Assembly (NCBI GenBank): GCA_028875185.1
Contig: JAPPFH010000075.1
Span: 1-32,343, forward strand
DNA length: 32,343 nucleotides
Source of the DNA: Chloroflexota bacterium
GTDB lineage: Bacteria > Chloroflexota > Anaerolineae > Aggregatilineales > Phototrophicaceae
Reading direction: 5' to 3'
Part shown: positions 3,066-16,630 of the stretch, piece by piece
Layout of the letters: each line of letters opens with the position of its first letter
Numbering within the stretch: position 1 is the first letter of the stretch
Notes under the pieces: model-generated
Told to the model about the DNA's origin: nothing
Seen by the model: only the letters and a program-made list of their open reading frames with translations
The model's database searches: none
Position numbers and translations under genes: made by a program

Positions 3066-4409
3066 ATGATCCGCAAACTAAGTATCACAGCGCTTTTTGT
3101 ACTGATGTTGGGATTGTTGGCGGGCTTCGCCGTCGCGCAAGACGCCGTCAGCATTACCGTCCGCTGCAAAGCCAGCCCGCCGGAAGAAGATTGGCGCTGC
3201 AACAGCTTCGCCGTGGTCGAAGAGCAGGTCGAAGCCGATCTGGGCATCGAGATTGACTTGAATCTGATTCAAGACAATGCTGGCTGGGGCGACTACAAGA
3301 ACGAATTCGTGCTGGCGTCGGAAGCCGGTGAAGCGCCCGATATCATCCTGTCCGGGCATGAAGACATTGGCGCCTGGGCGCCGGCCGGCTTCATCATCCC
3401 GCTGGATGACGTGATCCCCATGCACAGCGAATTTGATGACATTGTGCCTTCGCTTTGGGATTCGCACGGTTACGCGGGCCAGATCTGGGGCATCCCGCAA
3501 GATGCCGAAGCGCGCCCGATCTTCTACAGCAAGCTGCTGCTGCGCGACCTGGGCTGGAGCGAAGATGACATTGAATCGCTGCCCGACCGCGTAGTCGCTG
3601 GCGAATGGACCTTCGCCGATATGCTGGCGACAGCCGAAGCCGCCATTGACGAAGGCGTCGTTGACGCTGGCAATGGCTGGTGGCATCGCCCGAGCAACGG
3701 TCCCGACTTCCTCTATTACTACTACGGTCATGGCGGCGAAGTCCTCGATATGGAAGGCAACCTGGTCGTCGACCGCGACGCCTTGGTCGCGACTTATGAG
3801 CTGCTGGGCGGGGCGGTTGAGTCTGGCGTGCTGCGCTCGGATATCATCGGTCTCGATTGGGGCGAAGTCTGGCATCCGACAGTGGGGCAGGCTGAAACTG
3901 TGCTCTTCGCCGCTGGCGGCACCTGGAATTGGCCCAACTGGGCGATCAATTATGTTGCCGACAAAGGCGGGGATGAATATCTCTTCGAGAATATCGGGCT
4001 GACGCTCATTCCGGCAATGGCAACGGGCAAGGCGATCACCTTGACGCACCCGCTGACCTATATGATCAGCAGCGGCAGCGAAAATCCCGATGTCGCTCTG
4101 GCGCTGATCGCGGCGATCACCACGCCTGAGCACAATAACAAGCACGCCATCGACAGCTTCCACCTGGGCATTTTGAACGCGCAGTTGGAATCGGAGGCTT
4201 ACGCCAACAACCGCTTGCTGAGCAGCGCGCACTACATGCTTGATCACACGACGGCGCTGCCCAACCATCCGGGCTGGAACGCCTGGTCGGGCGCCTACTT
4301 CCTCGGCATCCAAGCCGTTGAGACGGGCGAAGCCGACGCGGCCGGCGCGGCTGACATCGCCATCGCGCAGATGCAGAACGAACTGGGCGACGGCATCGCC
4401 GTGCGCTAA
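3066..4409 (+). CDS. Extracellular sugar-binding protein of ABC importer 1
   Basis: A 447-residue solute-binding protein of the MalE/UgpB type. It starts with a Sec signal peptide (charged MIRK, hydrophobic core 5-22, cleavage probably after AVA before QDAV) and has no lipobox Cys. The mature part shows the family pattern: an early NSFAVVEEQ segment, then EAPDIILSGHED, WGIPQDAEARPIFYSK and YMISSGSENPDVALALIA. It would capture a carbohydrate or related solute outside the membrane and deliver it to the permeases at 4576 and 5556. AAAGGA lies 11 bases before the ATG. A possible extended -10 (TGTTACCAT, 3017-3025) lies upstream. It is followed by a small hairpin (4411-4422) and two REP-like hairpins before the permease. 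The ligand cannot be deduced; a phosphodiesterase gene downstream suggests glycerophospho-compounds as one option. Confidence 0.88.
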   Translation: MIRKLSITALFVLMLGLLAGFAVAQDAVSITVRCKASPPEEDWRCNSFAVVEEQVEADLGIEIDLNLIQDNAGWGDYKNEFVLASEAGEAPDIILSGHEDIGAWAPAGFIIPLDDVIPMHSEFDDIVPSLWDSHGYAGQIWGIPQDAEARPIFYSKLLLRDLGWSEDDIESLPDRVVAGEWTFADMLATAEAAIDEGVVDAGNGWWHRPSNGPDFLYYYYGHGGEVLDMEGNLVVDRDALVATYELLGGAVESGVLRSDIIGLDWGEVWHPTVGQAETVLFAAGGTWNWPNWAINYVADKGGDEYLFENIGLTLIPAMATGKAITLTHPLTYMISSGSENPDVALALIAAITTPEHNNKHAIDSFHLGILNAQLESEAYANNRLLSSAHYMLDHTTALPNHPGWNAWSGAYFLGIQAVETGEADAAGAADIAIAQMQNELGDGIAVR

Positions 4410-4575: not shown

Positions 4576-5559
4576 ATGTCCGAATCAGACACTAAAGCCA
4601 AACCGTCAGCCGCTTTCTTGCAGAGCCGGCGAAACGCCCTAAGATCTTACTTGGGCGCTTACGGCTTCATGGCGCCGGCCGGCGTCCTCGTCATTATCTT
4701 CTTCTTGGTCCCGGTCGCCATTGTTCTTTACCTCAGCGTCACCAACCTGGCCAGCTCCAACTTCACGTCTGACCTGGCCAGGATGGAGTTTATTGGCTTA
4801 AAGAATTATGAAACGCTGCTGAACGATCAGTTCGCGCGCAAAATATTTTTCAATACAATTTTCTATGTCCTGGTCACGCTCTCTATTTTTAACGTCTCGC
4901 TGGCGTTGGTGGTGTCGCTGCTGACGACGCACATCGACCGCAGCGCCGGCTTCGTCTTTCGCGCTCTGTGGATTCTGCCGCGCATCACTTCCCCGGTCGT
5001 CTACATCTTGATCTGGAAGCGCATGATGGCGGAGGCGCCATTCGGCATCCTCAATCAATTCAACGAGCTCTTGGGGCAGCCGACTTACAACTACGTCTCG
5101 ACCAATCCCTGGGTCTTCGTCGTGGTGGTCAACGGCTTCATCGGCGTGTCTTTCGGCATGATCATCTTCACCTCAGCGATCGAGTCGATACCCAAAGATC
5201 TGCTAAACGCCTCGCTGGTCGATGGCTCGTCGCGCATGCAGCGCATCCGGTATGTGATCTTGCCTTTGATCCGCTGGCCCCTGCTATTCGTCGTCACCTA
5301 TCAGACCTTGTCGCTCTTGACCTCCTTCGTCGAGATTCAGCTTTTGACCGATGGCGGACCCGGGCTTTATCGCACCGAGGTCTGGTCGCTGACGGCTTTT
5401 CATCGAGCGCTCTCCAATTATTTCGGCAATGCCCAATGGGGCTATGGCTCGGCTTTTGCCGTGCTGTTGGTCATGATTGGCGTGGTGCTGGCGGTGATCT
5501 ATATGCGCGTCTTCCGCTTTGATGAGTTGGTGGCTGAACCGCGGGTGGAGGCGCTATGA
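4576..5559 (+). CDS. ABC importer 1 permease, MalF type
   Basis: A 327-residue six-helix inner-membrane permease. The first helix is around residues 28-53 and the EAA loop that contacts the ATPase reads LLNASLVDGSSRMQRIRYVI with the following LPLIRWPL. It would form the translocation pore with the MalG-type partner encoded next. I use the ATG at 4576 rather than the TTG at 4567; neither has a clear Shine-Dalgarno sequence, and the REP-like hairpin just upstream suggests weak or regulated initiation. The stop overlaps the next start (ATGA, 5556-5559), indicating translational coupling with the second permease. Confidence 0.88.
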   Translation: MSESDTKAKPSAAFLQSRRNALRSYLGAYGFMAPAGVLVIIFFLVPVAIVLYLSVTNLASSNFTSDLARMEFIGLKNYETLLNDQFARKIFFNTIFYVLVTLSIFNVSLALVVSLLTTHIDRSAGFVFRALWILPRITSPVVYILIWKRMMAEAPFGILNQFNELLGQPTYNYVSTNPWVFVVVVNGFIGVSFGMIIFTSAIESIPKDLLNASLVDGSSRMQRIRYVILPLIRWPLLFVVTYQTLSLLTSFVEIQLLTDGGPGLYRTEVWSLTAFHRALSNYFGNAQWGYGSAFAVLLVMIGVVLAVIYMRVFRFDELVAEPRVEAL

Positions 5560-7133
5560 CGGCGCGCGCGAGCCTGTTCGACGCGGGCAAGCTCAAAATC
5601 GACGAGACGCCGCCCACCCTGGCGCAGGATTTGTTCAGCGCCCTGCGTTTGGGCCTCATCGGAATACTTGTCATGCTGGCCGCCGCCTTTTTCTTCAGCG
5701 GCGTCGTGGGCCCGCTCTTTGCGCTGGGCAATGTCGAAGAGACGGTGATGGATGTCTTGACCCGTCTCGCGTTGCTGGCGCTGCCCTTCGTCGCCTACAT
5801 CGCCGCCGCCAGCGTGGCCCGCCGCTATACCGCTGCGGATACGGGGAGAGCGCTGGGCTTGGCGTTTACGACCACCATCATATTGTTTGCCGCCATTTCA
5901 GCGGGCCACTATGCCTTTAGTTACGGCGCCTTCGCGCCCCGGCCATCGCTTCAGATGACGCTGAGCCAGACTGAGGCCGGCATTCGCGTCGAATCAATTG
6001 TCCCCGGTGGCGCCGCCGACATAGCCGAAATGCAGGTCGGCGATGTCATCACCGCGATTCGGCGCGATAAGGTGGATTTGGCGGCTTTCAACAAACGCGT
6101 CGGCCAATCAGAGGAAGATGCGCCGCTCCGTCTGCGCTTCATCCGCGGCGCTGAAGAAATGCAGGAGACTGTCCGCGTCGTCGTGCAATCCGATAAACAG
6201 TTGAACGCCATAATTCCGGGCCTCGCCATTGCGCTGGTCTTCACCGCGATCATCGTATTCTTGCCCGGTCACTGGGCGCCGTATATTGCGCTGATCGGTT
6301 TGCTGTCGCCACTCATTGTCGGCTATTTCTGGGTGATCGTCGCCACCTTCTCTTACCGCACGGAAGGGCTTGTCCCCCTTGACAGCAACGACAATTTCGG
6401 CGGCTTCACCTTGAAAAACTGGGAGTCGATCTTCGCCGGCAACATCGCTGGCTTGGAGTTCAATATATGGCCCATTTTGATGACCTCGCTGGCGATCGCC
6501 TTGGTTATGACTTTTGTCGTCTTGTTGGTGTCGTCAATGGCTGGCTATGCCCTTTCGCGCATGCACTTTCCCGGTCGCCGTTTTTTCTTGTCCTTCACCT
6601 TGATCCTGCATGGCTTTCCCGCCATTACGCTCTTGATCCCCATCTTTTTTGTGCTGCTGCGCTTGGGCGAGCTGCCGGTCATCGGCGAGTTGATCGGCTT
6701 CAACAGCATCGGCGGAATCGCCTTGGTCATGGTCGCTTTTCAACTGCCGCTCGGCGTTTGGCTGATGAAAGGCTTTTTCGATAACATCCCCTGGGATATG
6801 GAGCGCTCGGCGCTCATTGACGGCGCCTCCCGCTTCCGCACTTATTGGGAGATTCTGCTGCCGCAGATCCGGCCGGGTTTGCTGGCGCTGGGCATTTTCG
6901 CTTTCATCGGCGGCTGGAACGCCTATATCATCCCAGCCACCTATTCGATTGGATCCGGCGTCAGCAATTTGCCGGTGTTCTTGAATGAATTGATTGACGA
7001 GACCGCCCCGGTCGATTGGAATCAGGTAGCGGCGGTCGGGCTCTTCCAATTGATTCCGATCTTCATCTTCTTCATCTTCGCTCAGGAATATCTCTTGAAT
7101 ATCTACGCCGGCGGCACGAAGGGAAGCTCCTAA
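5556..7133 (+). CDS. ABC importer 1 permease, MalG type, with extra N-terminal membrane + PDZ module
   Basis: At 525 residues this is nearly twice the usual MalG length of about 280. The C-terminal part (about 240-525) is a standard permease with a YALSRMHFPGRR segment, the EAA loop ERSALIDGASRFRTYWEILL (416-435) and FIGGWNAYIIP. The first 240 residues are unusual: three predicted helices (about 31-56, 66-87, 99-118), then a PDZ-like domain at about 131-212, then a fourth helix (219-238) leading into the canonical first helix. The PDZ part shows GIRVESIVPGGAADIAEMQV, then GDVITAI. Charge distribution (RR and R between helices 2 and 3, acidic residues between 1 and 2) and the known cytoplasmic N-terminus of MalG place the PDZ domain outside the membrane, near where the binding protein docks. 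The ORF is continuous with no frameshift. Confidence 0.88.
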   Translation: MTARASLFDAGKLKIDETPPTLAQDLFSALRLGLIGILVMLAAAFFFSGVVGPLFALGNVEETVMDVLTRLALLALPFVAYIAAASVARRYTAADTGRALGLAFTTTIILFAAISAGHYAFSYGAFAPRPSLQMTLSQTEAGIRVESIVPGGAADIAEMQVGDVITAIRRDKVDLAAFNKRVGQSEEDAPLRLRFIRGAEEMQETVRVVVQSDKQLNAIIPGLAIALVFTAIIVFLPGHWAPYIALIGLLSPLIVGYFWVIVATFSYRTEGLVPLDSNDNFGGFTLKNWESIFAGNIAGLEFNIWPILMTSLAIALVMTFVVLLVSSMAGYALSRMHFPGRRFFLSFTLILHGFPAITLLIPIFFVLLRLGELPVIGELIGFNSIGGIALVMVAFQLPLGVWLMKGFFDNIPWDMERSALIDGASRFRTYWEILLPQIRPGLLALGIFAFIGGWNAYIIPATYSIGSGVSNLPVFLNELIDETAPVDWNQVAAVGLFQLIPIFIFFIFAQEYLLNIYAGGTKGSS

Positions 7134-7159: not shown

Positions 7160-8242
7160 ATGGAAATCAGAATCGACAATCTGACCAAGAAATTCGGCGA
7201 TGTGGTCGGCGTCGAAGACTTGACGCTGCATATCGATGATGGCGAATTTGTGGCTTTTCTGGGTCCCTCGGGCTGTGGCAAGACGACCACGCTCTTGACC
7301 CTGGCGGGCATCTACAAGCCGACGGATGGTCTCATCCGCTTCGGCGAGCGGGTCGTCAACACCGTGCAGCCGAAAGACCGCAATATCGGCATGGTCTTCC
7401 AAAGCTACGCCCTCTATCCCCACATGACCATCTTCCAGAATATCGCTTATCCGCTGAAGCTGAAGAAAACGCCGAAGAATGTTCAGAACGAGCGCGTGCG
7501 GCAGGTCGCCAATGTCATGGGCATCGGCGAATTGCTCGATCGCCGGCCCGGGCAGTTATCCGGCGGGCAGCAGCAGCGCGTCGCCTTGGGGCGCGCCTTG
7601 GTCAAAGAACCGGATGTCCTGCTATTTGACGAACCGCTTTCCAATTTGGACGCGCGCCTGCGCCTGACCATGCGCGGGGAGATCAAGCACTTGCAGAAGA
7701 ACCTGGGAATCACCTCAATTTACGTGACCCACGATCAACTGGAAGCGATGACCATGGCCGACCGCATCGCCGTGATGAACCGCGGGCGCCTGCAGGCTTT
7801 TGACGCCCCTGATGAATTGTATGATCGACCGAAGACGCTATTCGTCGCTGGCTTTGTCGGCAACCCGCCGATGAACTTCCTCAATGTCTCCGTTTCGCAA
7901 TCGAATGGGCATTTTCTCGCTGAAGCGGAGACGATTCAGCTGCCCTTGGGCGCGGACCGTGGCGAGCCTCCGGCGCGTCATGGCGGGGCGGTCGTCATGG
8001 GCATTCGGCCTGAAGATATTCAGATCGCCGCTGACGGCGATGTGACCGGCGAGATCTTCGTGGTGGAACCTCTCGGTCGCGAAGACTTGATCGATGCGCG
8101 CGTGGGCGAGCACAGTTTCATCTTGCTCGCCGATACCGAAAAGCAGCACCGCGCCGGCGAAAGCGTCTCGCTGAAATTCGATATGACGCAGGCGCAGTTC
8201 TTCGATCCCCAGACTGAACGTTCTCTGCTTTGGCATCATTGA
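7160..8242 (+). CDS. ABC importer ATP-binding protein, MalK/UgpC/MsmK type
   Basis: A 360-residue cytoplasmic ATPase. Walker A is GPSGCGKTT (35-43), the Q-loop lies in GMVFQSYALYP, the signature is LSGGQQQR (133-140), Walker B is VLLFDEPLSNLDARLR, and the H-loop is YVTHDQLEAMTMADR. A C-terminal regulatory/TOBE-like region (about 235-360, with VMGIRPEDI) is typical of carbohydrate importers. GGGAG lies ten bases before the ATG. It follows the permease by 26 bp and is overlapped by the next gene by 13 bp (4 bp if the TTG at 8239 is used). It is the only importer ATPase in the window, so it may also serve the importer at 17174-20944, as MsmK-type ATPases do elsewhere; that sharing is inference. 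Confidence 0.93.
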   Translation: MEIRIDNLTKKFGDVVGVEDLTLHIDDGEFVAFLGPSGCGKTTTLLTLAGIYKPTDGLIRFGERVVNTVQPKDRNIGMVFQSYALYPHMTIFQNIAYPLKLKKTPKNVQNERVRQVANVMGIGELLDRRPGQLSGGQQQRVALGRALVKEPDVLLFDEPLSNLDARLRLTMRGEIKHLQKNLGITSIYVTHDQLEAMTMADRIAVMNRGRLQAFDAPDELYDRPKTLFVAGFVGNPPMNFLNVSVSQSNGHFLAEAETIQLPLGADRGEPPARHGGAVVMGIRPEDIQIAADGDVTGEIFVVEPLGREDLIDARVGEHSFILLADTEKQHRAGESVSLKFDMTQAQFFDPQTERSLLWHH

Positions 8243-9681
8243 TCGCCCCCACGCTAGATGCGCAGCTCGACAGCCTCCGGCGCTCGCCAGCGGCTGACGC
8301 GGATTTTGCGCTTGCCCGGCAGTACGCGCCGCTGATTCGCTTTGACGCGCGCGAGCCCTTCCTCCCGTCAGTCGTCGGTTACACCGTGCTGCGGAAAGAC
8401 GCGCCATCCGTATCGTTTCCCCGAGAAATTCAGCTGGCGGATAATATCGCCTTCGCCATCGAATACGCCATCTGGTGGGATTGGGACATCCAGCATCTTT
8501 ACGAGCTGGAACATGTTTGGGTTTATGTTGACGGCGCCGGCGACATTGCCGCTGCGGAAGCGAGCTGGCACGGGCGCTACCACCAGATGCGCGACGAGGC
8601 GGGGCGGCCGCCCCTCGAGGACGATCGGCTGGCGCTCTATTCAGAACCGGGCAAGCACGCCTTCGCGCCATCGCCGGCGTGGCTGCTGCAAAGGAAGGCG
8701 AAAACGCTCGCCAGTTGCGGCGTCCGCGCGGGCGCAATGGGCCTGCACGTGACGCCTCTATTTGACGGCATCATCCACGACGAGGGACCGCTGAATAATC
8801 GCCTGGTTCACACCTACATGGAGCGCCAGCAGTTTGAGCCTTCATATTCTTTTTCCCTAGCGTTCGACCTGCGGCGCGCCGTATTCGTTCCCTGGCGCCA
8901 GCTATTCGAATGGATACCGGCGCGCGTTTCCGCCTGGCTCGCCCAACTAGCGGCGACCATCCCGCCCGGGCAGCGGCGCGTCTTGCGCATCGCCCATCGC
9001 GGCGCATCCGCTTATGCCGCGGAAAATTCGCTCGCCGCCATTCGCGTGGCGGCTGAATTGGGCGCCGATTTTGTCGAAATTGATATCCGTATGACGGCGG
9101 ATGATGTCCCGGTCGTCATCCATGATGGCAGCTTGAAGCGCACTCACGGCATCAATGGCGATGTGTCGGACTTGACGATGGGCGAGCTGCGTCAATTGAC
9201 GGCGAATGCTAGCGGGATTGTCAGCTTTGATGAGGCCGTCAAGATTTGCCGCGAACTCGGATTGGGGCTCTATCTCGATATCAAGCGCCTCACATCTGGC
9301 GGGGCGCGTTCAATGTTTGCATCGCTCGATGCCCATCACTTCATGAAAGGCACGATCTTCGGCGCCTTCCGCCCCGATTATCTCGCTGATATAAAGGCGG
9401 CGCGCCCCGATGCCAAGACTGCGATCCTGTTCGGCGCGGTCGATATAGACGCGGTCAAGCTGGCGCAATCCATCAATGCCGATTACGTCCATCCCTGCTG
9501 GGAGAATCGCGCAGAGCAGCCGCATCGCCTGCTGACGCCCGCTTGGATCGAGGCAGTGCGCAAGGCGAATCTTGGCATAGTCTGCTGGCACGAAGAACGC
9601 CCATCAGAGATTGCCGCCTTGAAGGCTTTGGGCGTCGATGCGATTTGCTCGGACAAGCCCGAATTGTTGGTAGAAATCTGA
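8230..9681 (+). CDS. Two-domain protein: Vps62/DUF946-like N-terminus plus glycerophosphodiester phosphodiesterase
   Basis: Residues about 252-483 are a GDPD (UgpQ-type) TIM barrel: IAHRGASAYAAENSLAA (H256, R257, E265), E283 and D285 in VEIDIRM, and H298 in VVIHDG. These residues bind the metal and phosphodiester and release sn-glycerol 3-phosphate from glycerophosphodiesters. Residues 1-245 form a separate domain with YAPLIRFDAREPFLPSVVGY and ELEHVWVYVD. I think it resembles the Vps62/DUF946 family, but this is from memory and uncertain. No signal peptide is seen, so the protein is probably cytoplasmic. Starts are TTG at 8230 or TTG at 8239; the latter overlaps the ATPase stop as TTGA. It lies in an ABC operon, much as ugpQ does in ugpBAECQ. 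Confidence 0.82.
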   Translation: MASLIAPTLDAQLDSLRRSPAADADFALARQYAPLIRFDAREPFLPSVVGYTVLRKDAPSVSFPREIQLADNIAFAIEYAIWWDWDIQHLYELEHVWVYVDGAGDIAAAEASWHGRYHQMRDEAGRPPLEDDRLALYSEPGKHAFAPSPAWLLQRKAKTLASCGVRAGAMGLHVTPLFDGIIHDEGPLNNRLVHTYMERQQFEPSYSFSLAFDLRRAVFVPWRQLFEWIPARVSAWLAQLAATIPPGQRRVLRIAHRGASAYAAENSLAAIRVAAELGADFVEIDIRMTADDVPVVIHDGSLKRTHGINGDVSDLTMGELRQLTANASGIVSFDEAVKICRELGLGLYLDIKRLTSGGARSMFASLDAHHFMKGTIFGAFRPDYLADIKAARPDAKTAILFGAVDIDAVKLAQSINADYVHPCWENRAEQPHRLLTPAWIEAVRKANLGIVCWHEERPSEIAALKALGVDAICSDKPELLVEI

Positions 9682-11286: not shown

Positions 11287-13521
11287 ATGGAACGCTCCAA
11301 ACGATTCGACCTGCTGGCAAAGCGGGACATCAACAAAGAGACTTATGTCGAGCCTTGGCCCGAAGCCGGCTTGATCGTCGCCGATAGCCCCTACGACCCC
11401 GCGCCGAGCCTCACAATTGACGACGGCCGCATCATCGAAATGGATGGCGTCGAGCGTTGCGACTTTGACGCGCTTGATATCTTCATCGCTTCTCAAGCCT
11501 TGGACCTGGAAACAGCGGAAGCGGCGATGGCGCTGCCGTCGCAAGATTACGCCCGCATGTTGGCCGATATCAACCGGCCGCGCGCCGACATCGCCCGCTT
11601 GATCGCCGGCTGCAGTCCCGCCAAGCTGACCGACATCATCCGCCACATGAATGTGCTGGAGATGATGATGGGCTTGGCAAAGATGCGCATAAGGCGGACG
11701 CCAGCCAATCAGGCGCACGTCACCAATTGGCGCGAGCACCCGGCGCTGCTGGCGGCTGACGCGGCTGAAGCGGCGCTGCGCGGTTTCGCCGAGGTCGAGA
11801 CCACCGTGCGCGTCGCCCGCTTCGCCCCCTTCAACGCTCTGGCCATCCTGGTCGGGACGCAGACTGGCCGCGGTGGCGTGCTGACGCAATGCTCGGTTGA
11901 GGAGGCCTTGGGCTTGCGCCTGGCGATGAAGGGCTTGACCAGCTATGCGGAGACACTGTCCGTCTATGGCACCGAAAAGACTTTCGTCGATGGCGACGAC
12001 AGTCCCTGGTCGAAGGCTTTCCTCGCCTCCGCTTACGCCTCGCGCGGCGTCAAAATCCGCTTCACCTCCGGCACCGGCTCGGAAGCGCTGATGGGCCGCG
12101 CAGAGGGCAAATCGATGCTCTACCTGGAAGCGCGCTGCCTGCTGGTGGTCAAGGGCGCTGGCAGCCAAGGCGTGCAGAACGGCTCGATTTCTTGCATCGC
12201 CCTGCCAGAAGCCTTGCCCGGTGGCGTGCGGGCGGTGCTGGCCGAAAACCTGCTGGCCTCCATGCTCGGCTTGGAAGTGGCCGCCGGCAACGATGCGCTG
12301 GCTTCCCATTCGAGCATTCGCAAGACCGCCAAGCTGATGCTGCAATTCATCCCGGGGGCGGATTTCATCTTCAGTGGCTACAGCGCCATCCCCAAGCGCG
12401 ACAACCTCTTCGGCGGCGGCAACTTCGATGCCGAAGATTTCGATGATTACAATGTCTTGCAGCGTGATATGCAGATTGACGGCGGCGTCCGCCCGATTAC
12501 GGAAGACGAGGCGCTATCCATCCGGCGCAAGGGCGCGCGCGCGATTCAAGCGGTCTACCGCGAGCTGGGCTTGCCGGCGATCAGCGATGCCGAGATTGAC
12601 GCGGCGGCCGTGGCGCATGGCAGCGACGACATGCCCGAGCGCGATATCGTACCCGATTTGGAAGCGGCTGACGCCTTTATGGCTGGCGACGCCGATTTCG
12701 TCGCTGTAATCCGCGCCTTGCAGAACGCTGGCTTCGGCGATGTCGCCGATAACATCCTGGAGATGGGGCGGCAGCGGATCGCGGCCGATTACTTGCAGCC
12801 ATCAGCGATATTCGACGCCGACTTCAAAGTGCGGAGCGCGATTAACGATGCCAATGATTATGTCGGTCCCGGCACTGGATATCGTCCAGCCGGTCAGCGC
12901 TGGCGCGAGATGCAGGCTATCCCGCAAGCCAAGTCGCCCGAAGGCTTTGTCGACCCGCATGTGGGCGAACCATTGCCGCGCCTGGTGGAGTTAGGTCCCG
13001 CAGCGAAGGGGGCGCAGCGCGAAGTAGTTCTGGCGCTGGGTCCCGCTTTTGGCGGCGCGCTTGCGACGACCATCGGCGGCTTGGACCACGAAGACGTGCT
13101 GGAAGCAATCTTGGGCGGCGTCGCCGCGGAGGGCTTGGTGGCGCGCATCGTCCGTGTCTATCACTCGTCGGATTGCGCCGCCATCGGCTACGTGGGCGCC
13201 CGCCTGAGCGGCAGCGGCATCGGCATCGGCTTGCAATCGCGCGGTACCGCGGTCATCCATCAGAGAGACCTGGCGCCGCTGAATAACCTGGAGCTCTTCC
13301 CGCAATCGCCCAGCCTGACGCTGGCGACCTACGAAGCCATCGGAAGAAATGCGGCGCGTTACGCCTTGGGCGCCCCCACCGTGCCGGTCGCGGTCGAGAT
13401 CGACAATGGCGCCCGCCTGCGCCTCATCGTGAAGACCGCTTTACTGCATCGGCGCGAGACGGACGAGGTCTGCCCTGATCGGCCGCCGATGGAATTGCGC
13501 TTCGACTGGGAGCCGGCCTGA
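11287..13521 (+). CDS. B12-dependent diol/glycerol dehydratase, large and medium subunits fused
   Basis: Residues 1 to about 545 match the large subunit (PduC/DhaB1) and about 560-744 the medium subunit (PduD/DhaB2), joined in one open frame. The enzyme converts 1,2-diols or glycerol to aldehydes using adenosylcobalamin radical chemistry. Compared with Klebsiella diol dehydratase numbering as I remember it, the active site is conserved at an offset of +1: Q142, H144, E171, E222, Q297, D336, S363 and F375. The start MERSKRFDLLAKRDINKETY matches the beginning of PduC, which fixes the ATG. The small-subunit gene starts on the last base of the stop codon (TGATG). No reactivating factor or microcompartment shell gene is in the window. 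The linker (about 546-560) is short and the medium part lacks the microcompartment-targeting tail of PduD. Confidence 0.93.
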   Translation: MERSKRFDLLAKRDINKETYVEPWPEAGLIVADSPYDPAPSLTIDDGRIIEMDGVERCDFDALDIFIASQALDLETAEAAMALPSQDYARMLADINRPRADIARLIAGCSPAKLTDIIRHMNVLEMMMGLAKMRIRRTPANQAHVTNWREHPALLAADAAEAALRGFAEVETTVRVARFAPFNALAILVGTQTGRGGVLTQCSVEEALGLRLAMKGLTSYAETLSVYGTEKTFVDGDDSPWSKAFLASAYASRGVKIRFTSGTGSEALMGRAEGKSMLYLEARCLLVVKGAGSQGVQNGSISCIALPEALPGGVRAVLAENLLASMLGLEVAAGNDALASHSSIRKTAKLMLQFIPGADFIFSGYSAIPKRDNLFGGGNFDAEDFDDYNVLQRDMQIDGGVRPITEDEALSIRRKGARAIQAVYRELGLPAISDAEIDAAAVAHGSDDMPERDIVPDLEAADAFMAGDADFVAVIRALQNAGFGDVADNILEMGRQRIAADYLQPSAIFDADFKVRSAINDANDYVGPGTGYRPAGQRWREMQAIPQAKSPEGFVDPHVGEPLPRLVELGPAAKGAQREVVLALGPAFGGALATTIGGLDHEDVLEAILGGVAAEGLVARIVRVYHSSDCAAIGYVGARLSGSGIGIGLQSRGTAVIHQRDLAPLNNLELFPQSPSLTLATYEAIGRNAARYALGAPTVPVAVEIDNGARLRLIVKTALLHRRETDEVCPDRPPMELRFDWEPA

Positions 13522-13931
13522 TGACAGAAACGATGAGCGACTATCCGCTGCGAGACAGCAAAGCCGACGAACTCCGCACTCACAGCGGTCGCGCGCTGAG
13601 CGACATCACAGCCGAAGCCATCGCCGCGGGCGCCCTCAACGGCGATGACCTGCGCACCCATGCCGATACCTTGCGCCAACAAGCGGACATCGCGCGCCAA
13701 GGCGGTTACCCGCAGCTGGCGGCCAACCTCGGGCGCGCCGCGGAATTGACCGATGTGCCTAACGAGGAGCTGCTCAAGATATACGAGCTGCTGCGCCCCG
13801 AGCGCGCGTCTTATAACGAACTGCTGCGGCTGGCGGATTACCTGGAAGCGACCTACGGCGCAAAAGAGAACGCCGCTTTCATCAAAGACGCGGCCGAAGT
13901 CTACAAGGAGCGGAATCTGCTGCGGCGCTAG
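13521..13931 (+). CDS. pduE: B12-dependent diol/glycerol dehydratase small subunit
   Basis: A 136-residue helical subunit that completes the dehydratase encoded just upstream. It shows SDYPLRDSKADELRTHSGRA near the N-terminus, then LRQQADIARQGGYPQLAANL and RAAELTDVPNEELLKIYELL, all typical of PduE/DhaB3, and ends in LLRR. PduE of Salmonella is about 173 residues; the missing part here is the N-terminal extension that helps target that enzyme to a microcompartment, which fits a free cytosolic enzyme. The start is fixed by the one-base overlap with the preceding stop, although an internal ATG four codons later is possible. Two hairpins follow the stop. Confidence 0.92.
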   Translation: MTETMSDYPLRDSKADELRTHSGRALSDITAEAIAAGALNGDDLRTHADTLRQQADIARQGGYPQLAANLGRAAELTDVPNEELLKIYELLRPERASYNELLRLADYLEATYGAKENAAFIKDAAEVYKERNLLRR

Positions 13932-13954: not shown

Positions 13955-14047
13955 GGGCGATTCTGTGAATCGCCCTCCCGCGCTGTCGAATGCCCGAAGG
14001 CTTTGTTATAAATTTGCTGTGCGTACGGGCGAGTTGGTGGCTCGCCC
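13955..14047. repeat. REP-like hairpin pair in inverted orientation, copies 4 and 5
   Basis: Copy 4 is GGGCGATTC-TGT-GAATCGCCC (13955-13975), preceded by GTAG. Copy 5 is GGGCGAG-TTGGTGG-CTCGCCC (14027-14047), preceded by GTAC and followed by CTG, so it points the other way. The pair fills the gap between the dehydratase small subunit and the next gene and resembles the paired arrangement of REP/BIME elements. Confidence 0.8.
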
Positions 14048-14076
14048 CTGCAAGCAATCGAATTGGGAATTATGAT

Positions 14077-15351
14077 ATGACCAACCAACCCCTCGAATCC
14101 AACATCAACACGCACTCGCGCCCAAGCGACTTGCGCATCACCGACCTGCGCATCGTCAATCTCGAGCCGCTGCCCTTCAACGTCACGCTGCTGCGGCTCG
14201 ATACCAATCAGGGCATCAGTGGTTACGGCGAAGTCCGCGATGGCGCCAGCCCGACTTACGCGCTGCTGCTCAAATCGCGCCTGCTGGGCGAGAATCCTTG
14301 CAATATCGACAAGCTCTTCCGCAGAATCAAGCAGTTCGGTTATCACGGGCGGCAGGGCGGCGGCGTCTGCGGCATTGAAATGGCGCTCTTCGATCTGGCG
14401 GGCAAAGCCTACGGCGTTCCCGCCTATCAACTTGCCGGTGGAAAGTTCCGCGATAAAGTGTTGATTTACAGCGATACCGATACGGTCGCTGACGGCGCGG
14501 CCATGGGCGAGCGACTCAAAAGGCGCATGGACGATGGCTTCAAATTCCTCAAAATGGATATCGGCATCGGCTTGTTGGAAGGGATTGAAGGCGCGATTGC
14601 GGCGCCGCCGGGCGCGCTCGAAAGCCGTGGTGTCATGCACCCCTTCACCGGCATCCAAATCACCGATATTGGCATTGAGCATCTGGTCGAGTACGTGCGG
14701 CAGGCGCGCGCGATCATCGGCTATGAGATCCCGTTGGCAGCCGATCATTTCGGGCATATCAATGTCGAATCTTGCATCCGGCTGGGTCAGGCGCTCGATC
14801 AGTTTTCGCTCGCCTGGTACGAAGATATGATCCCCTGGCAATTGACCGAGCAGTGGCGGCAGCTGAAACAGTCGGTGCTGACGCCGGTCTGCACCGGCGA
14901 AGACATCTACCTGAAAGAGGGTTTTCTGCCCCTGCTGGATGCTGGCGCCGTCTCGGTGATCCACCCTGATCTGGCGACATCGGGCGGCATCATGGAGACC
15001 AAAAAAATCGGCGATCTGGCGCAAGATTATGGCGTTCCCATGGCGATGCACATGGCTGGATCGCCGGTGTCATTCCTGGCTAATGTCCACTGCGCTGCCG
15101 CGACCGAGAATTTCTACGCGCTGGAGAATCACTCGGTCGATCTGCCCTGGTGGAGCGATCTCATCGATGGCGTATCAAAGCCGCTGATCATCGATGGCCA
15201 CGCGCCCGTGCCGGAAGGTCCCGGGCTGGGCTTCGGCGAGCTCAACGAAGAGGTCATTCGCGCGCGCCTGGATCCGACGCGCCTCGATGGCTACTTCGAG
15301 CCGACCGACCGCTGGGACGACGAGCGCTCGCAAGATCATTTGTGGAGTTGA
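14077..15351 (+). CDS. Enolase-superfamily dehydratase (mandelate racemase / mannonate-gluconate dehydratase type)
   Basis: A 424-residue enzyme with an enolase-superfamily capping domain and barrel. Metal ligands are D223 (LAADHFGH), E249 (WYEDMIPW) and E275 (CTGEDIY). H325 in MAMHMAGSP and H225 next to the first ligand are the likely acid/base pair, a pattern of acid-sugar dehydratases such as mannonate or gluconate dehydratase; K159 in KFLKMD is also placed in the barrel. Such enzymes abstract the proton alpha to a carboxylate and eliminate water. I use the ATG at 14077 because the frame upstream runs through a hairpin repeat and lacks family similarity. The next dehydratase gene starts one base after its stop. 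The exact sugar acid is unknown. Confidence 0.85.
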   Translation: MTNQPLESNINTHSRPSDLRITDLRIVNLEPLPFNVTLLRLDTNQGISGYGEVRDGASPTYALLLKSRLLGENPCNIDKLFRRIKQFGYHGRQGGGVCGIEMALFDLAGKAYGVPAYQLAGGKFRDKVLIYSDTDTVADGAAMGERLKRRMDDGFKFLKMDIGIGLLEGIEGAIAAPPGALESRGVMHPFTGIQITDIGIEHLVEYVRQARAIIGYEIPLAADHFGHINVESCIRLGQALDQFSLAWYEDMIPWQLTEQWRQLKQSVLTPVCTGEDIYLKEGFLPLLDAGAVSVIHPDLATSGGIMETKKIGDLAQDYGVPMAMHMAGSPVSFLANVHCAAATENFYALENHSVDLPWWSDLIDGVSKPLIIDGHAPVPEGPGLGFGELNEEVIRARLDPTRLDGYFEPTDRWDDERSQDHLWS

Positions 15352-15352
15352 C

Positions 15353-16630
15353 ATGCGCATCAGCGAAATCCACATCACGCCGGTCGCCGTCCCGGACCCG
15401 CCGCTGCTGAACGCGGCCGGCCTGCACGCGCCCTACGCCCTGCGCATCATCATTGAGCTGGTCAGCGCTGACGGGCTCTCCGGCTGGGGCGAAATCCCCG
15501 GCAGCGACGCGGCGCTCTCCGCTTTGAAACAGGCAGCCAAGCATCTCATCGGCATGGATCCCTGGGGACTCAATGCCATCGACGCGAAACTGGAATCATT
15601 GGCGAAACCGGACGAGCGCGGCGCCACTCCCTGGGATCAGCGGACCGGGGTGCACGTGCGCAGCGCCATTGAAGTCGCCTGTTTCGACTTGCTGGGGAAA
15701 TCCATCGGGCGGCCCGCCGTTGATTTGCTCGGCGGGGCCGTTCGCGAGCGCGTGCCTTTCAGCGCTTATCTCTTCTACAAATACGAAGGCGCTGGCGGAG
15801 ACTTCGGCTTCGGGCGCGATGCGTCCGCGACCGGCTGGTTTGCGGCGCGGGCTGATGCGGCGCTGGATCCGGCCGGCGTCGTTGCCCAGGCGCGGGCGAT
15901 GATAGAAAATTACGGCTTCAAGTCGATCAAGCTCAAGGGCGGCGCCTTCGAACCGCAGCAAGAAGTCGATGCCATTCTGGCGCTGCGCGATGCCTTTGGT
16001 CCCGATATGCCGCTGCGGCTCGATCCCAATGCTATCTGGCGCGTCGATACCGCCATCGCCGCCGGAAAGCAGTTGGAAGGGCTGCTCGAATACTATGAAG
16101 ACCCGGTGCGCGGGCAAGCGAACATGGGGGCGGTGTCGCGCGCGCTCGATATCCCGCTGGCGACTAATATGTGCACCACATCATTCGCCGATCTGCCGGG
16201 CAGCATCGCCCATCAATCGGAGGCGATCATCTTGTCGGATCATCACTTCTGGGGCGGCTTCCGCGCAACGCTGGAGCTGGCGCGCTTTTGCGCTGTCTTC
16301 GGGCGCGGTTTGTCAATGCATTCCAACAGTCACCTGGGCATATCGGTGGCGGCGATGACGCATCTGGCGGCTGCTGTGCCGGAATTGACCTATGATTGCG
16401 ACACGCATTATCCTTGGCAAGACGGCTACGATCTGCTCGCCGAGCCGCTGCCATTTGAGGACGGCGCCATCGCAGTGCCACGCGGGTCGGGCTTGGGCAT
16501 CGAAGTCGACCGCGCTAAACTTGCGCAGTTGCATCAGCAATATCTCGCTTGCGGTTTGACCGAGCGCGATGACGAAGCCGAAATGCAAAAGGTTCAGCCC
16601 GGCTGGACCTTCCAAGCGACGCGCTGGTAA
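15353..16630 (+). CDS. Enolase-superfamily dehydratase, glucarate dehydratase type
   Basis: A 425-residue enzyme. The KxK motif (K193, K195 in IKLKGGAF), D224 and N226 in LRLDPNAIW, E249 in YYEDPVRG, N272 in ATNMCTT and H323/H327 in SMHSNSHLGIS fit the glucarate dehydratase (GudD) group, which turns D-glucarate into 5-keto-4-deoxyglucarate. DHHFWGG at 296-302 is also typical. Its ATG lies one base after the preceding stop, so the two dehydratases are co-translated. The two genes, with the B12 dehydratase upstream, form a locus with three water-eliminating enzymes. A related sugar acid or lactone could be the true substrate; the aldolase and dehydrogenase of a complete pathway are not in the window. 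Confidence 0.85.
   Translation: MRISEIHITPVAVPDPPLLNAAGLHAPYALRIIIELVSADGLSGWGEIPGSDAALSALKQAAKHLIGMDPWGLNAIDAKLESLAKPDERGATPWDQRTGVHVRSAIEVACFDLLGKSIGRPAVDLLGGAVRERVPFSAYLFYKYEGAGGDFGFGRDASATGWFAARADAALDPAGVVAQARAMIENYGFKSIKLKGGAFEPQQEVDAILALRDAFGPDMPLRLDPNAIWRVDTAIAAGKQLEGLLEYYEDPVRGQANMGAVSRALDIPLATNMCTTSFADLPGSIAHQSEAIILSDHHFWGGFRATLELARFCAVFGRGLSMHSNSHLGISVAAMTHLAAAVPELTYDCDTHYPWQDGYDLLAEPLPFEDGAIAVPRGSGLGIEVDRAKLAQLHQQYLACGLTERDDEAEMQKVQPGWTFQATRW

Follow-up and report, generated by a model that had tools for sequence, protein, structure and literature searches.

An N-terminal membrane-PDZ module on a MalG-type ABC permease of one Anaerolineae order, a possible extracytoplasmic docking domain

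The window (the whole stretch of 32,343 nucleotides of contig JAPPFH010000075.1 that was analysed) derives from a Chloroflexota bacterium of the family Phototrophicaceae, order Aggregatilineales, class Anaerolineae, and these are the family, order and class referred to below. It harbors an operon which encodes, in this order, a solute-binding protein, a UgpA-type permease, a MalG-type permease fused to an additional N-terminal module, an ATPase of the UgpC/MalK type and a glycerophosphodiester phosphodiesterase (GDPD) (Table 1). A binding protein, a second permease and a MalK/UgpC ATPase are the partners expected for a type I importer. The reading frame of the fused permease is unbroken and starts with an ATG that shares the sequence ATGA with the stop codon of the preceding permease gene. 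Among 34 loci with a fused gene (L039-L072) the UgpA gene is present in all 34, the ATPase gene in 32 and the binding-protein gene in 31, while 25 of the 27 close loci (L039-L065) show a GDPD relative and the seven others (L066-L072), some of them short, show none. The protein of locus L070 is the same as one on contig C153 of genome G015, which belongs to the family, and the title 'Bacteroidetes bacterium' of that locus is probably wrong. Further along the window a B12-dependent propanediol/glycerol dehydratase is encoded with its large and medium subunits fused in an ORF of 744 residues (11287-13521, plus strand), directly followed by its small subunit (13521-13931). Two adjoining enolase-superfamily (MR_MLE) ORFs lie at 13990-15351 and 15194-16630 on the plus strand; their overlap may reflect start choice.

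Table 1. Importer operon and parts of the fused permease, with positions in the window and residue numbers of the encoded protein.
Feature	Position	Strand	Basis
Solute-binding protein (SBP_bac_1), signal peptide without lipobox	3066-4409	+	Pfam; signal peptide about 3066-3137, AVA↓QD
Partner permease, UgpA/MalF type, no added domain	4576-5559	+	Pfam, NCBIfam
MalG/UgpE-type ABC permease with N-terminal membrane-PDZ module, 525 aa	5556-7133	+	ORF, Pfam, NCBIfam, structure alignment
Three added transmembrane helices, residues 22-120	5619-5915	+	AlphaFold helices 22-57, 62-91, 96-120; hydropathy peaks
PDZ domain, residues about 129-211, probably outside the membrane	5940-6188	+	Pfam, profile, AlphaFold, Foldseek
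SLQM, residues 131-134, in the place of the PDZ carboxylate-binding loop (X-phi-G-phi)	5946-5957	+	Gly replaced
RRD turn, residues 169-171	6060-6068	+	Alignment of module-bearing proteins
Fourth added transmembrane helix, residues 216-237	6201-6266	+	Hydropathy, AlphaFold; returns to the cytoplasm ahead of MalG helix 1
Ordinary MalG half with BPD_transp_1 domain, residues 243-525	6282-7130	+	Pfam, alignment to solved structures
ATP-binding subunit, UgpC/MalK type	7160-8242	+	Pfam, NCBIfam
Glycerophosphodiester phosphodiesterase (GDPD)	8230-9681	+	Pfam; no signal peptide or strong helix seen

The C-terminal half of the fused permease matches the BPD_transp_1 domain (PF00528) at residues 326-513 (E 1.1e-13, 51.8 bits against a Pfam cut-off of 26.4) and aligns to SugB (E 1.2e-26) and MalG (E 3.6e-20) of solved transporter structures. 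The scores against the NCBIfam equivalog models of MalG (96.1 bits, cut-off 261), GlcU (70.1 bits, cut-off 340) and UgpE (67.2 bits, cut-off 297) are far below the cut-offs, and the protein is thus kin to these permeases at the family level only. The MalG, UgpE and SugB permeases of type I carbohydrate importers resemble it in the C-terminal half and in the operon partners, whereas they have six helices and the permease of the window has ten inferred helices plus the added, probably outward, PDZ domain.

The N-terminal 242 residues comprise three transmembrane helices, an HtrA-like PDZ domain and a fourth helix. Hydropathy analysis located the four helices at residues 33-51, 67-85, 99-117 and 218-236, ahead of the MalG helices, and they are also present in an AlphaFold model of residues 1-245 (mean pLDDT 82.6), in which the ten-residue blocks of the PDZ domain score 87-91. 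This model of the module is the sole basis of the structural reading, as a model of the full protein (mean pLDDT 59.4) was set aside because of the poor scores of its MalG half. The PDZ_2 match of the window's own sequence (residues 134-206, E 1.7e-4) is under the Pfam cut-off; in an alignment of the module, however, each of the 22 sequences hits PDZ_2 with E <= 1e-3 (best E 2e-12), and a profile of the module matches DegQ (E 8.4e-17). A Foldseek search with the module model retrieved PDZ domains of the HtrA family at probability 1.00, with an rmsd of 1.5 for 2z9i and 3stj over 88 and 97 columns, respectively.

The orientation of the MalG half in the membrane is established, and since a single helix separates the PDZ domain from MalG helix 1, the domain would be located outside. 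The loop assigned to the outside (residues 57-66) has no basic and three acidic residues, and the loop assigned to the inside (88-97) has two basic residues and one acidic residue; the N-terminal tail, with three basic and four acidic residues, is uninformative for topology. Helix parity and loop charges thus indicate that the PDZ domain probably faces outward. The sequence-only reading had proposed a MalG half preceded by four extra helices and an outward-facing PDZ domain. Of these elements, the MalG half is confirmed by the domain match and the alignments to SugB and MalG, the helices by hydropathy and the AlphaFold model and the PDZ fold by structure prediction and family profiles, while the orientation is supported by the topology analysis. 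The same reading had called the module inserted. The module is indeed present, but its position is better described as an N-terminal addition, in view of the close module-less orthologue L073, which starts about 20 residues before the place equal to residue 243 of the protein described here. For a conclusion drawn from sequence, the architecture is about as firm as possible.

A search for the same combination of PDZ and MalG parts in other Chloroflexota, as suggested earlier, was successful, and within the genomes searched the combination is restricted to the order. The MalG half has an orthologue in 51 of 154 genomes of the order (E <= 1e-65), of which 49 are fused, one is without the module (G133) and one is cut by the end of a contig (G047). 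The fused set consists of 41 cases from the module search, six from fetched loci and two (G099 and G113) recognized by the length of the reading frame only. Within the family the whole module is found in 41 of 98 genomes at E <= 7.4e-28, and within the genus in 28 of 34, including that of the window; the tally for the family at E <= 1e-3, 51 of 98, takes in ten genomes with PDZ-only matches. In G133 the first outer loop of the orthologue (L137) contains an insert of another kind, which includes hydrophobic stretches. Among 396 genomes drawn from the class, 55 have an orthologue, including 13 order members. At the 44 orthologue places outside the order the frame is 231-409 residues long; 42 of these places were fetched (G269 and G357 were left out), the frames of L099 and L102 are open at a contig end, and the module is absent in all 40 with a complete start, as indicated by a stop codon upstream of the frame. 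When the module profile was compared to 400 genomes of the phylum, including few order members, the whole module was found only in the window's own genome among the matches listed, the others covering mainly the PDZ part. Within that genome one of the 76 MalG-like matches carries the module.

The module-less orthologues from other Anaerolineae orders share 50-63% identity over the permease part and the same gene order where this was seen. They differ in having no module, and the binding protein of their operons is a lipoprotein and has a linker. A tree of 92 permease parts requires one change of label between fused and module-less proteins; it was made by a quick method and has long outgroup branches, and in a FastTree the node uniting the fused proteins received a support of 0.166, a value possibly misplaced by rerooting. 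As the tree needs one change, a single switch between the module-less and fused states is likely, with an uncertain root. Comparison with 15 orthologues from the genus gave dN/dS ratios of 0.045-0.183 for the PDZ domain, 0.103-0.249 for helices 1-3 and 0.027-0.056 for the MalG half, which are approximate because several dS values exceed 1. By these ratios the module evolves faster than the MalG half; it is under purifying selection, and no ratio suggests decay.

The nearest fetched relatives of the permease PDZ domain are signal-peptide proteins with several PDZ domains in a row (L257-L269), which occur in many genomes of the order. A Pfam scan of ten of the proteins L257-L270 detected two to four PDZ_2 stretches in nine of these, and L270 is an S41 peptidase. 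The HtrA/Deg proteases and the tandem-PDZ proteins have the PDZ fold in common with the permease, whereas the permease has no protease domain (Pfam detected no trypsin-like one in the ORF), has lost the loop glycine and possesses an RRD turn. In a study of PDZ domains, the motif X-phi-G-phi is given as the carboxylate-binding loop; its third residue is nearly always Gly in human PDZ domains, while CAR11 and CAR14 have Gln and LNX1-1 has Ser (PMC7138185). This motif is not kept in the permeases: of 46 module sequences, 30 have Gln at the third position, 15 have Glu and just one has Gly. The glycine is retained in the first PDZ domain of all 14 PDZ relatives that were fetched from the order (L257-L270; L264 and L265 by eye). 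Conversely, R170 of the RRD turn is present in all 46 module-bearing proteins, while an arginine occupies this position in only one of 35 repeats recognized by motif in the same 14 relatives.

Fused and module-less operons also differ in the anchoring of the binding protein. The signal peptide of the binding protein encoded in the window has no lipobox cysteine, and a lipobox is absent in all 40 distinct fused operons for which this N-terminus was available. Thirty-nine of these proteins fit the signal peptidase I motif; that of L070 reads LSA↓QE. In contrast, a lipobox occurs in all 32 module-less operons with an intact N-terminus of the binding protein (in L081 by a laxer rule only). The other loci of the module-less set of 47 are three unclear ones in which the contig begins inside the binding-protein gene (L075, L104 and L111), three with proteins starting further in, seven without a binding protein and two duplicates. 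Fused-operon binding proteins also have no N-terminal linker, and apart from this UgpA and the binding protein show just a few gaps of 1-5 residues. Co-evolving inserts in these two proteins were considered and dropped in view of these small differences; neither UgpA nor the binding protein of fused operons contains an insert matching the module.

The split in anchoring is perfect, but the lack of a lipobox extends to other binding proteins in two genomes of the lineage. Of the 70 other SBP_bac_1 matches in the window's own genome (G000), 42 were examined and none has a lipobox; 33 have signal peptidase I sites, seven have Tat signals and two are unclear. In a second order member (G059) the lipobox is absent in all 30 binding proteins examined out of 36, the orthologue included. 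On the other hand, the 30 binding proteins examined (of 70) in G433, a module-less genome outside the order, are all lipoproteins, 17 by rule and 13 by reading of the sequences. Non-lipidation is thus common to the other binding proteins examined in two order members, and the anchor swap was discarded as specific evidence for a tether. The lack of lipidated binding proteins seems to belong to the lineage and carries little weight for the fused importer. Loss of the lipoprotein pathway was likewise dropped as an explanation, because each of the ten order members drawn, the window's genome among them, has matches to Lgt and LspA. No literature account clearly addressing a lack of lipoprotein binding proteins was found in the open-licence PubMed Central literature. 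A search for Omp85 gave no match in six genomes tested, while seven of 14 controls matched. This agrees with one source, according to which Chloroflexota are without BAM genes and which also mentions that tomograms of some members have been read as diderm (PMC13319060). The result for Omp85 is as expected for a cell without an outer membrane, in which a soluble binding protein would need holding.

We suggest that one permease of a type I importer of the carbohydrate/glycerol-3-phosphate class may have gained the N-terminal module within one Anaerolineae order, and that the outward PDZ domain could serve as an added extracytoplasmic docking surface on the translocator. The substrate may be a glycerophosphodiester or glycerol-linked compound, which is a guess from the neighbouring genes. 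The PDZ domain would hold or position a partner beside the gate, as P2 of MalF does in the E. coli maltose importer. P2 lies outside the cytoplasm, between later helices of MalF, and the binding protein docks there. MalF likewise has extra N-terminal helices in addition to this docking domain, whereas the PDZ module is on the other subunit, has another fold and occupies another place in the chain. Titles among the references of one paper state that the binding protein of MalFGK2 contacts MalF-P2 and MalG-P1 (PMC3150292). The first candidate partner would be the binding protein from the permease's own operon, which is secreted and not lipidated, and the second some envelope protein, with a grip that is probably mediated by a non-canonical surface and not by a free C-terminus. 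A P2-like role of the PDZ domain, acting through a non-canonical surface and with its own operon's binding protein as the most likely partner, is our tentative choice, possible rather than probable by analogy with MalF. Several observations speak against this role: only one of the 76 MalG-like matches of the genome has the module, and the remaining importers with a soluble binding protein work in its absence; UgpA and the binding protein have no matching insert; the C-terminal tail of the binding protein is similar in module-less operons; and G133 retains a module-less orthologue. The idea that an acidic binding protein docks electrostatically on arginines of the PDZ domain was dropped, as the charge of the orthologous binding protein is ordinary for its genome (rank 7 of 30 in G059).

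Instead of the binding protein, the PDZ domain may bind a different secreted or envelope protein, such as a protease of the HtrA type, a protein of the wall or surface layer or an enzyme outside the cell that supplies the importer. The nearest relatives in the order, mostly tandem-PDZ proteins with signal peptides, and the HtrA-type domains among solved structures are compatible with this, as are the occurrence of the module on one importer only in the genome, which fits a partner special to its substrate, and the restriction of the invariant R170 to the permease version of the domain. However, the few flanks sampled from other genera encode GntR and DeoR regulators, an aminotransferase and others, with no recurring extra secreted gene beside the operon, and the linked GDPD was dropped as a partner since its product looks cytoplasmic. 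A partner of this kind is conceivable but somewhat doubtful. It appears rather unlikely that the module is structural, with a PDZ fold that stabilizes or gates the permease, or aids its assembly, and has no separate ligand. The loss of the loop glycine in 45 of 46 sequences suggests that peptide binding may be gone, and the module evolves faster than the MalG half, but purifying selection on the PDZ domain and an invariant arginine nearly absent from its relatives argue against a mere scaffold.

A receptor-type tether, by which one importer compensated for the loss of lipid anchors in the lineage through capture of its own soluble binding protein by the permease PDZ domain, is in our view unlikely; that both changes coincide within one order may be meaningful or a matter of chance. 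Tethering of the binding protein, sensing of its occupied state and recruitment of a protease, the three roles offered in the sequence-only reading, are hypothetical. There is only a slight chance that the PDZ domain grips the binding protein by its free C-terminus in the canonical manner. The tail is strongly conserved, and 17 of 41 binding-protein ORFs in fused operons end in ITVR. However, the last residue of these 41 ORFs is Arg in 36, Lys in two, Gln in two and Gly in one (L124, with the end out of register), thus never hydrophobic, and the tails in module-less operons are much alike. Together with the replacement of the loop glycine by Gln or Glu, a deviation from the human pattern cited above, this makes canonical binding of the C-terminus disfavoured. 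An assembly or sequencing error that joined two genes, already judged improbable from the window, has nothing in its favour and practically no likelihood, as 45 distinct sequences besides the window's, from many assemblies, share the continuous frame.

The permease with a PDZ domain truly combines two known and individually ordinary parts in a new way; no description of a PDZ-bearing sugar-type permease was found in a limited search of the open-licence PubMed Central literature. It represents an importer architecture that is conserved within one lineage. Roughly fifty orthologues carry the module and some forty lack it, in the same kind of operon, and together they form a natural experiment, which bears on how non-lipidated binding proteins stay near the membrane in cells that seemingly have no outer membrane. 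The retention of soluble binding proteins in members of an order with Lgt and LspA and no Omp85 match is a puzzle raised here, and the fused permease offers a non-canonical PDZ domain, apparently on the outer face, for which a ligand can be searched directly.
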